Positions 12,129 to 14,496 of a DNA stretch of 64,000 bases are shown in pieces. Source of the DNA: Halalkalicoccus tibetensis (GTDB taxonomy: Archaea > Halobacteriota > Halobacteria > Halobacteriales > Halalkalicoccaceae); assembly GCF_037996645.1 (NCBI RefSeq), contig NZ_JBBMXV010000003.1, forward strand, positions 124,001 through 188,000. The letters are read 5' to 3'. Positions within the stretch are counted from its first letter, which is position 1, and every line of letters begins with the position of its first letter. Both the position numbers and the translations under genes were made by a program. Below the pieces are notes generated by a model. That model had not been told where the DNA came from. It made no database searches and saw only the letters and a list, made by a program, of their open reading frames with translations.

Positions 12129-12223
12129 TCGGGTTCCTGTTTCAGTAGAAGCGAAATCGCTGCATCGATGTTACACACTCTCGATTAAATACCAGCAATG
12201 TTATAATATAGAAGAGTTCTGAA

Positions 12224-13375
12224 TTAACTTGTTCTTCCAAATCGAAATCCAGAGTCACTGAGGAACTCCGAAGAAAGGCCAACAGAACGCGGTCTTTCAC
12301 GAGCATCTGTTGGCGAACATTCTGCAACATCACCCAATGAACCCCTCCCAACTGCATGCAAAGAAACAAGAAACGCATCGTTGTTGATAATCGTATACGT
12401 TGGACCACCGGAATCTCCGGCAGCGGTTTGACCGACCTCGACTTCTACCCCTTCTCCATTGAATGTGACACAGTCTAAATTCGCGCTCTCGTTGTATGCT
12501 GTACAGTAGCCACTCTGGAACTGGGTAGTAGCTCCTCGTTTATATACGGGATCGAAGTCATCGATCAGTTTAGCATAATTCGTGTATGATCCTACGAGAT
12601 TTATCGAATTGTTTTCACTTCTCTGTACATGGCCTGAAAAGTCAAGATCGTTATTCTCGATCTCGATCGCGGCCCAGTCGTACGATTCGTGGTAATTTAG
12701 CACACTCCCTATCTCTCGTGATGGAGCCCAGCTACTGCTCTGTGATAATCGGTTTCCAATCGGAGAAGAATCACAGCCAGTCTTTCCCTGGCCGGCGGCT
12801 ACGTGAGCTGCTGTAAGCATAGTGAGCGTGTCTGTCGATTCCCAGTAGGCTCTTGCACACAACGTTCCACCACCACCGCCCTCTACGGCCGTTATCCAAC
12901 CACCACGCACTGGGTCGTTGGTCCCTCTCAGTGTGCATTGAAGCTCATCAGGTGGTGCTTCTATTGTTTCAATGTTGACACCATCAACGGATTCGGGAAC
13001 GATACTGTCAACATAAGATAGATCGACAATGTCACTGTCATACATAGCGCGTATCTGCAATTCGGTATGACCCTCAATTTCCTCGTTGGATCCTGTGATA
13101 CTAACGCTAGTAATTTCTGGCAAGTCGAGATATTGCTTAGAAACCTCCCGATGTATTTCTTCAGTTCGTTTAACCTCTTCCCACCATTCTTTGGAAACTG
13201 TTTCGTATAGGATCACTTCTTCACCATCAAAAGCCGAAGCGACTTCGATCGTATTGTTATCTCCTGCTGCAATACCTATTCCAGGCAGTACGCTCATACT
13301 TCCTAAGGCTTTCAGGATATTTCACCGAGAACCTCTGATAGACCCTGTGTCAGGATTGTTGTCTTCTTTTCCCAT
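12224..13375 (-). pseudogene. secreted trypsin-like serine protease, Tat signal interrupted by a stop codon
   Basis: From the ATG at 13375 the frame reads 17 codons (ending GSR), then TGA at 13324-13322, then NILKALGSMSVLPGIGIAAG in the same frame and an intact protease. Changing TGA to CGA would give SRRNILKALGS, a standard haloarchaeal Tat signal; the stop sits on the second arginine. Counting from the internal ATG at 13297 (357 residues), about residues 35-115 form a prodomain and the rest a chymotrypsin fold with H165 (TAAHVA), D207 (YDWAAIE) and S296 (GDSGGP); at least five cysteines. The gene is clearly AT-richer than its neighbours, suggesting transfer. Either a recent pseudogene, a sequencing error, or a shorter non-exported product from 13297. 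Confidence 0.82.
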
Positions 13376-13396
13376 ACCAATATATAAGATAGTATT

Positions 13397-13406
13397 GTAT
13401 TTAAAT
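13397..13406 (-). promoter_or_regulatory. TATA box of the protease gene
   Basis: On the minus strand the sequence reads ATTTAAATAC, centred about 27 bases upstream of the ATG at 13375. The spacing supports leaderless transcription from 13375 and therefore the upstream start, which makes the in-frame stop at 13322 significant. Confidence 0.5.
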
Positions 13407-13468
13407 TTTATTTCTATATATTATTATTTAATCGAAAAACATATATTCTACAGGTGGAAAAAGGGTAC

Positions 13469-13942
13469 ATGGATCGGAGAAGCTGGCTCGGCGTCTTGGG
13501 AACTGGAGCCCTCATTTCGCTGAGTGGATGCGTGACTGGGATGCTCTCGGATGAGGAAAACAGTCCAGATCCTCCGGATGGGATCGCAGACGTACGGTTC
13601 GAGCGGAAGGACCCACAGGGCTGGGAACTGATCGATCCCCAGAAAGAAGTACACACCGGCTTCAAGATTATTGATGACAAAGATGCCGACCATCCGACGT
13701 TTATCGTTCGAGGACAGGTGGAGTCAGGGGATCCAGACTGTACAGAGATCCATATAGATGGGATAGAATACATCGATACCACAGTATCAATCGAAATCGA
13801 AGTACGAGAAGAAGGAGAGGAGTGTCTGGACGTTATAGCATTCGAGCCGTTCGAAATGGAGATCGTGTTCGAAACCGAAGACGACGTGCCGGAGTCCATC
13901 GAGATCAACGATTTCGAGAAAGGCGTCCCGGAGCCGGAGTAG
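13469..13942 (+). CDS. Tat-dependent lipoprotein of unknown function
   Basis: A 157-residue secreted protein. The N-terminus MDRRSWLGVLGTG followed by the lipobox LSGC is a typical haloarchaeal Tat lipoprotein signal, so the mature chain would be lipid-anchored on the outside. The ATG at 13469 is chosen over the GTG at 13454 because it places the twin arginine at positions 3-4. The mature part is acidic, beta-rich and has two cysteines (PDCTEI, EECLDV) that could form a disulfide. I recognise no family. It is divergent from the protease gene across an AT-rich 93-base spacer and is followed six bases later by the prodomain-like gene. Confidence 0.8.
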   Translation: MDRRSWLGVLGTGALISLSGCVTGMLSDEENSPDPPDGIADVRFERKDPQGWELIDPQKEVHTGFKIIDDKDADHPTFIVRGQVESGDPDCTEIHIDGIEYIDTTVSIEIEVREEGEECLDVIAFEPFEMEIVFETEDDVPESIEINDFEKGVPEPE

Positions 13943-13947
13943 CCCCC

Positions 13948-14475
13948 ATGAACAGACGAACCCTCCTCGTAACGCTCGGAGCCATCGGAATCACCACGTC
14001 GGGTATCGCGGCGGGCCAATCGGACGAAAACGATGAGAACTGCGAGCCGGTCGAGGTCGTCGTCGGGGAGGACGCCAACGGCGAGATCACCGAGGAGGTT
14101 CCCGCCGCGTGGCAGGAACACGTCGAGCGGACGGAGGAGGTTCACGAGGAGATAGAAACGGAACACGGCAACGAGTCGTGGTTCGAGTCGGCGAGTATCA
14201 GAGAAGGAGAGGGGGAGGTCTGTGATCGGAATCGGATGGCCGTCTCGGTGAACGTTTCGGACAGAGACGAGGCAGAGGAACGGATCGAGGAGCGAGAGGA
14301 CGTACAGATCCTCATCGATGACGGCGACCGGGAGGATCGATTGGAGACGGTCGAAGACGAAGGCGAGGGAGAATCCGAGACAGAGGAGATGGCTGGCTTT
14401 GGAGTCCTCGCCACGCTCGGCGGCCTCGGTGGCGCTGTCTATCTACTTATGCGGCGGTTCGGCAATAGCGAATAG
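13948..14475 (+). CDS. Tat-exported, CTERM-anchored protein resembling the protease prodomain
   Basis: A 175-residue protein with a Tat-like signal (MNRRTLLVTLGAIG), an acidic middle, and a C-terminal tail EMAGFGVLATLGG + hydrophobic helix + RRFGNSE. The tail resembles the PGF-CTERM signal handled by archaeosortase A, but has AGF instead of PGF. The middle contains W55-x3-V-x-RTEEVH-x-E, matching W38-x3-V-x-RTEEIH-x-E in the prodomain of the neighbouring protease (counted from its internal ATG). Further matching is weaker by eye. Inference: a stand-alone, surface-held prodomain-like protein that may fold or inhibit a protease. It forms an operon with the lipoprotein gene. Confidence 0.75.
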   Translation: MNRRTLLVTLGAIGITTSGIAAGQSDENDENCEPVEVVVGEDANGEITEEVPAAWQEHVERTEEVHEEIETEHGNESWFESASIREGEGEVCDRNRMAVSVNVSDRDEAEERIEEREDVQILIDDGDREDRLETVEDEGEGESETEEMAGFGVLATLGGLGGAVYLLMRRFGNSE

Positions 14476-14496
14476 TGAACCGGCGAATGACGGTGA

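Follow-up and report, generated by a model that had tools for sequence, protein, structure and literature searches.

A stop codon at the second Tat arginine of a predicted chymotrypsin-like protease gene in Halalkalicoccus tibetensis: probably a young pseudogene

Organization of the protease locus

The window, a stretch of 64,000 nucleotides from a contig of Halalkalicoccus tibetensis (NZ_JBBMXV010000003.1), contains an interrupted protease gene whose frame was re-read on the minus strand, and the positions that the initial annotation had given for the ATG at 13375 and the TGA at 13322-13324 were found to be correct. Starting from ATG 13375-13373 the frame encodes MGKEDNNPDTGSIRGSR, is interrupted by TGA (13324-13322) at codon 18 counted from this ATG, and continues with NILKALGSMSVLPG... 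through 365 open codons to the stop at 12224 (Table 1). From the internal ATG at 13297 an ORF of 357 aa can be read. The upstream ATG had been described as promoter-matched, which agrees with a TATA-like box, TTTAAATA, read about 26-27 nt upstream of it; a box at such a spacing is expected for a leaderless haloarchaeal transcript. A scan for sigma-70 promoters was set aside as inapplicable to archaea. The Tat twin-arginine motif is incomplete in the translated N-terminus, where translation ends at the second Arg, and a hydrophobic core/cleavage region, NILKALGSMSVLPGIGIAAGDN, judged by eye, comes after the RR position. Reading the sequence by eye, no homopolymer run or tandem repeat was seen at the stop codon.

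Table 1. Coordinates of the features of the protease locus and its divergent neighbours in the window.
Feature	Position	Strand	Basis or remark
TATA-like box TTTAAATA	13398..13405	-	read from sequence; centred ~26-27 nt upstream of ATG 13375
Putative ancestral start codon ATG	13373..13375	-	frame translation and starts of relatives
Tat signal remnant, 17 codons, MGKEDNNPDTGSIRGSR	13325..13375	-	frame translation
TGA at the site of the second Tat arginine	13322..13324	-	R in that column in 78/78 relatives
Gap between stop and next in-frame ATG, 24 nt	13298..13321	-	sequence reading
Internal-ATG ORF, 357 aa: end of signal region, N-terminal domain of ~100 aa, chymotrypsin-like domain	12224..13297	-	
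Catalytic His codon	12803..12805	-	column H165, invariant
Catalytic Asp codon	12677..12679	-	column D207, nearly invariant
Catalytic Ser codon, in GDSGGP	12410..12412	-	column S296, invariant
Divergent neighbour, Tat-type lipoprotein (MDRRSWLGVLGTGALISLSGC...)	13460..13942	+	same insert; lipobox judged by eye
Tat-signal protein like the protease N-terminal domain, PGF-CTERM-like C-terminus	13948..14475	+	same insert

Genomic setting

The protease gene (minus strand), the lipoprotein gene and the gene of the small Tat protein (both plus strand) share a low-GC insert of about 12.15-14.48 kb, which is located between the malate dehydrogenase (mdh) and ferredoxin genes. GC3 amounts to 40% in the protease gene, 60% in the lipoprotein gene and 74% in the gene of the small Tat protein, compared with 96% in mdh and 91% in a gene that is presumably Hel308-like. 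In all five congeners that span the site (G001, G002, G003, G004 and G006; the contig of G005 ends 485 bp after mdh), mdh and ferredoxin are separated by 183-1116 bp, as against about 2.4 kb in the window, and none of the three genes was found there. The mdh protein is 95% identical between the window and congener G003. Because five congeners span the site without it, the protease gene is considered accessory, and it was probably acquired horizontally. At the DNA level no match to the gene was obtained in nine other genomes of the family. A close orthologue with the ancestral codon was found neither in 98 related genomes (protein search) nor in the nine family genomes (DNA search), plasmids, phages, genome_contigs or viral_contigs; the protein matches listed among the 98 genomes, the window's own aside, show 23-38% identity. 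A viral origin of the insert was also considered and is unsupported by the phage and viral_contigs searches.

From the sequence, the mdh-ferredoxin gap (12129-14496) reads as a variable site in the genus: in congeners it holds a gene that we take to be of the cupin type (G001, G003, G004) or frames for small membrane proteins (G003, G006).

The protein family

No Pfam trypsin model matched the ORF of the window alone. In a protein search of 98 related genomes, relatives were detected with E-values down to 2.5e-23, and at E up to 1e-3 matches were present in 16 of the 98 genomes, the window's own included, two of them (G005, G059) matching through the stand-alone type of the N-terminal domain. 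The window ORF and 16 relatives were combined in an alignment of 17 members, in which H and S are invariant and D is nearly invariant (columns H165, D207 and S296). Individual members matched Trypsin_2 (7/17; missed by 10/17) or Trypsin (4/17), and the profile of the alignment matched streptogrisin B in the PDB at E 4.5e-8 (1cso, 1sgd). On the basis of the invariant H and S, the nearly invariant D, the streptogrisin B match and the Pfam matches among members, the gene product is most likely a chymotrypsin-like (S1/PA clan) serine protease, predicted to carry an N-terminal domain of about 100 residues. That the protease domain is intact, as had been annotated, was borne out, with H, D and S all present at the conserved columns. 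The read-through frame scored 325.8 bits against the profile, to which the window ORF itself contributed. Of 392 genomes of the order that were searched with this profile, 187 gave a match at E up to 1e-10, a count that takes in some stand-alone N-domain proteins. A second, distant member lies in the same genome (G000:C1:910987-911901, E 8.7e-23).

Plasmid proteins of Halorussus halophilus, Salinigranum rubrum and Halobacterium hubeiense, annotated as hypothetical or trypsin-like, belong to the same family over 84-97% of the ORF with 22-24% identity to it, and the Halorussus and Halobacterium copies (L020, L004) are intact with an RR signal. With the streptogrisin B/alpha-lytic protease group (1cso, 1sgd) the family shares the catalytic domain with H, D and GDSGG; the relation is remote, and the N-terminal domain of the window family is unmatched there. 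The Tat-dependent halolysins, such as SptA of Natrinema sp. J7-2, are likewise secreted serine proteases of haloarchaea in which a Tat signal and an N-terminal domain precede the catalytic domain, but they are subtilisin-like, whereas the protease of the window is chymotrypsin-like with its signal broken by a stop (PMC6085418). A literature search of limited coverage yielded no publications on a family of Tat-signal chymotrypsin-like proteases. The larger gain of the analysis is this family itself, with its distinct N-terminal domain and stand-alone N-domain relatives elsewhere.

The stop codon and the Tat signal of relatives

For the comparison of the signal region, relatives were taken from the matches of the protein and profile searches as a subset consisting of the best matches and others picked for stops or partial matches. 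Filtering by a script left 78 distinct relatives that are intact and of full length; they are not independent (L068-L071, for instance, are near-identical), and 29 partial match rows were set aside, among them duplicates, contig-edge copies, two stand-alone N-domain proteins, and L085 and L086, whose frame looks intact and whose match begins late. In the alignment the two Tat columns hold R and R in 78/78 of these relatives, and R and a stop in the copy of the window. Every intact relative thus agrees with the proposal that an ancestral Tat signal lost its second arginine to the stop. The codon of this arginine is CGT in 20, CGG in 17, CGA in 16, CGC in 15, AGA in 7 and AGG in 3 relatives. Both codons for which the initial annotation had proposed to look, CGA and CGT, are therefore in use; since all six Arg codons occur and no orthologue was found, the C-to-T change is an assumption. 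At the column of the internal start (13297), Met is found in 1/78 relatives, and homologues that naturally start there without a Tat signal were not encountered among the 78.

As a control for chance, all six frames of the window were screened, and a Tat-like pattern was found to flank 6 of 1802 in-frame stops; among these six, TGA 13322-13324 alone occupies the Tat position of a protease family and is followed by 365 open codons. When the ORF was lengthened upstream past the stop, its score against a profile of the 16 relatives rose from 202.2 to 209.7 bits; among 200 shuffled prefixes, 2 scored as well as the real extension. Judged on these sequence comparisons, the gain of 7.5 bits appears as modest support when taken alone and as strong support together with the RR alignment, which seems the stronger evidence of the two. 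The present frame holds 20 codons that are one transition, and 120 that are one substitution, away from a stop, so that a stop landing on the Tat arginine is a modest coincidence among the possible nonsense changes. It was also claimed that a single change removes both export and translation. This holds, and it adds little, as any early nonsense change stops translation.

With respect to columns conserved in at least 85% of members, the copy in the window matches 17/19, the misses being the stop and a G near the C-terminus, which was counted as a gap. Fewer conserved columns than in the window copy were counted in 7/78 relatives at a threshold of 70%, in 6/78 at 85% and in none at 95%. By these counts the window copy falls toward the lower end of the conservation range, partly through the stop itself.

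Fate of the interrupted gene

We consider it probable that a recent nonsense mutation silenced an accessory, probably horizontally acquired gene for a Tat-exported chymotrypsin-like protease. Ribosomes would start at the upstream ATG 13375 of a leaderless transcript, synthesize a peptide of 17 residues and terminate at codon 18; they would then fail to reinitiate at the internal ATG, which follows the stop after 24 nt, and no protease would be made. According to the respective studies, transcripts of Haloferax volcanii are mostly leaderless (PMC3986360), and three gene pairs of this organism lost reinitiation at distances of 22-23 nt (PMC10666635). Intact homologues exist and the copy in the window is interrupted by a stop, as in a pseudogene. 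A second lesion is absent, with 365 open codons after the stop and the conserved residues kept, so that the gene is young as a pseudogene, in use, or misread: the lack of other lesions would make the change a young one, and an intact downstream frame is equally expected if the downstream part is still used or if the stop is a sequencing error. Among the possibilities listed by the initial annotation, a fresh pseudogene fits best, given the stop at a family-invariant Arg, the intact remainder and the site without the gene in congeners. Nonsense pseudogenes, accessory genes that are intact except for one premature stop, are a general prokaryotic kind, to which the gene of the window would belong; here the stop happens to be on the Tat arginine. 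It would represent a clean, very young loss of a haloarchaeal secreted protease gene, and it warns that the 357-aa ORF should not be annotated as a cytosolic protease of natural origin.

An error of sequencing or assembly, in which case the true genome would have an arginine codon here and encode a functional secreted protease, would account for a difference of a single codon in which all else is intact, and the assembly is a draft in 15 contigs. We regard it as unlikely. The codon lacks a homopolymer run or tandem repeat, and in 39 segments (41,922 bases) conserved with G003, some of which are shadow frames, every stop on the side of the window precedes the first Met of the aligned query. The sequence is therefore not generally poor, a result compatible with a single error.

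Ribosomes may also initiate independently at the internal ATG 13297. The frame is intact past this ATG, AGGA is located shortly before it, and a second AT-rich box (13387-13381) could begin a shorter transcript. That a non-exported 357-aa protease made from this start works in the cytoplasm, as had been suggested, is nevertheless rather improbable. The gap of 24 nt between stop and start compares with abolition of reinitiation at 22-23 nt in Hfx. volcanii (PMC10666635), which, according to PMC3986360, does not use SD motifs in 5'-UTRs. With Met at the column in one relative and RR in all 78, the product would be without Tat arginines, unlike every intact relative. Furthermore, a Tat-mutated halolysin was active inside cells, followed by cell death, according to a passage of PMC6085418 that cites earlier work; that enzyme is described there as subtilisin-like and thus belongs to a different family. 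In a more elaborate form, the stop would have made an intracellular enzyme of an exported protease: the short upstream frame would serve as a leader, and weak internal initiation would give a Tat-less protease, restrained either by its own N-terminal domain or by the stand-alone relative of that domain from the adjacent gene. We hold this to be very unlikely.

Read-through or recoding of the TGA, giving some full-length protein, would profit from a frame that is open on both sides. This proposal fared poorly and is highly improbable, as no tRNA-Sec above the family cut-off was found in the genome (97.31% complete), where four weak matches were tRNA-Thr, Arg, Ser and His, and as only insertion of Arg would be expected to restore the Tat motif, which any other residue would still spoil. 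No conserved in-frame TGA was seen among the stop-bearing relatives inspected. Such a TGA had been considered as a feature of the family and was rejected after mapping of 20 of the stop-bearing match rows ('1 TGA' rows among them): in intact copies the stops are the normal terminators, located where the match ends, and the remaining ones fall in frame-broken or contig-edge copies. That the export signal is switched on and off, reversibly or at the level of the population, another of the annotated possibilities, has nothing direct in its favour and is scarcely credible; neither a tandem repeat nor a slippage tract was read at the codon, and between 11.9 and 14.9 kb the longest inverted repeats are imperfect, 20 nt long and none of them closely flanks it.

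Frame-broken or split relatives were seen in G017:C26, G017:C33, G011:C45, G186:C1, G386:C5 and G201:C2 (loci L002, L130, L129, L119, L114 and L132); their share is a biased rate, as partial and stop-bearing rows were picked on purpose. These copies suggest either frequent loss of an accessory family or draft-assembly errors.

The stand-alone N-domain protein and the lipoprotein

The lipoprotein encoded at 13460-13942 gave no Pfam match at E up to 0.1. Its neighbour, the protein of 175 aa encoded at 13948-14475, is related to the N-terminal domain of the protease (profile E 3.3e-14, direct BLAST 6.7e-4), and its PGF-CTERM-like end was found at E 0.095, below the cut-off. Among 392 genomes of the order, 12 gave a match to it at E up to 1e-4, counting that of the window; some of the matching rows represent proteases or are short. 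Speculatively, such a protein could be an inhibitor or a decoy of these proteases. It may be worth more than the stop codon itself.

A fixed pairing of the protease with a stand-alone N-domain protein was rejected. The other protease loci that were scanned, over about 0.5-1.5 kb on each side, have no such neighbour, and contig C79 of G005 carries the lipoprotein and small-protein pair with no protease on that contig. There the pair (13460-14475 in the window) recurs upstream of mdh (L146 3285-4334) with 79% and 73% identity.

A second copy of the small Tat protein in G005, at 1390-1908 of L015 (G005:C146), has an in-frame TAA. At its beginning this contig resembles bacterial sequence, presumably FtsK-like, joined to the copy of the small Tat protein, and it is perhaps a chimeric assembly.
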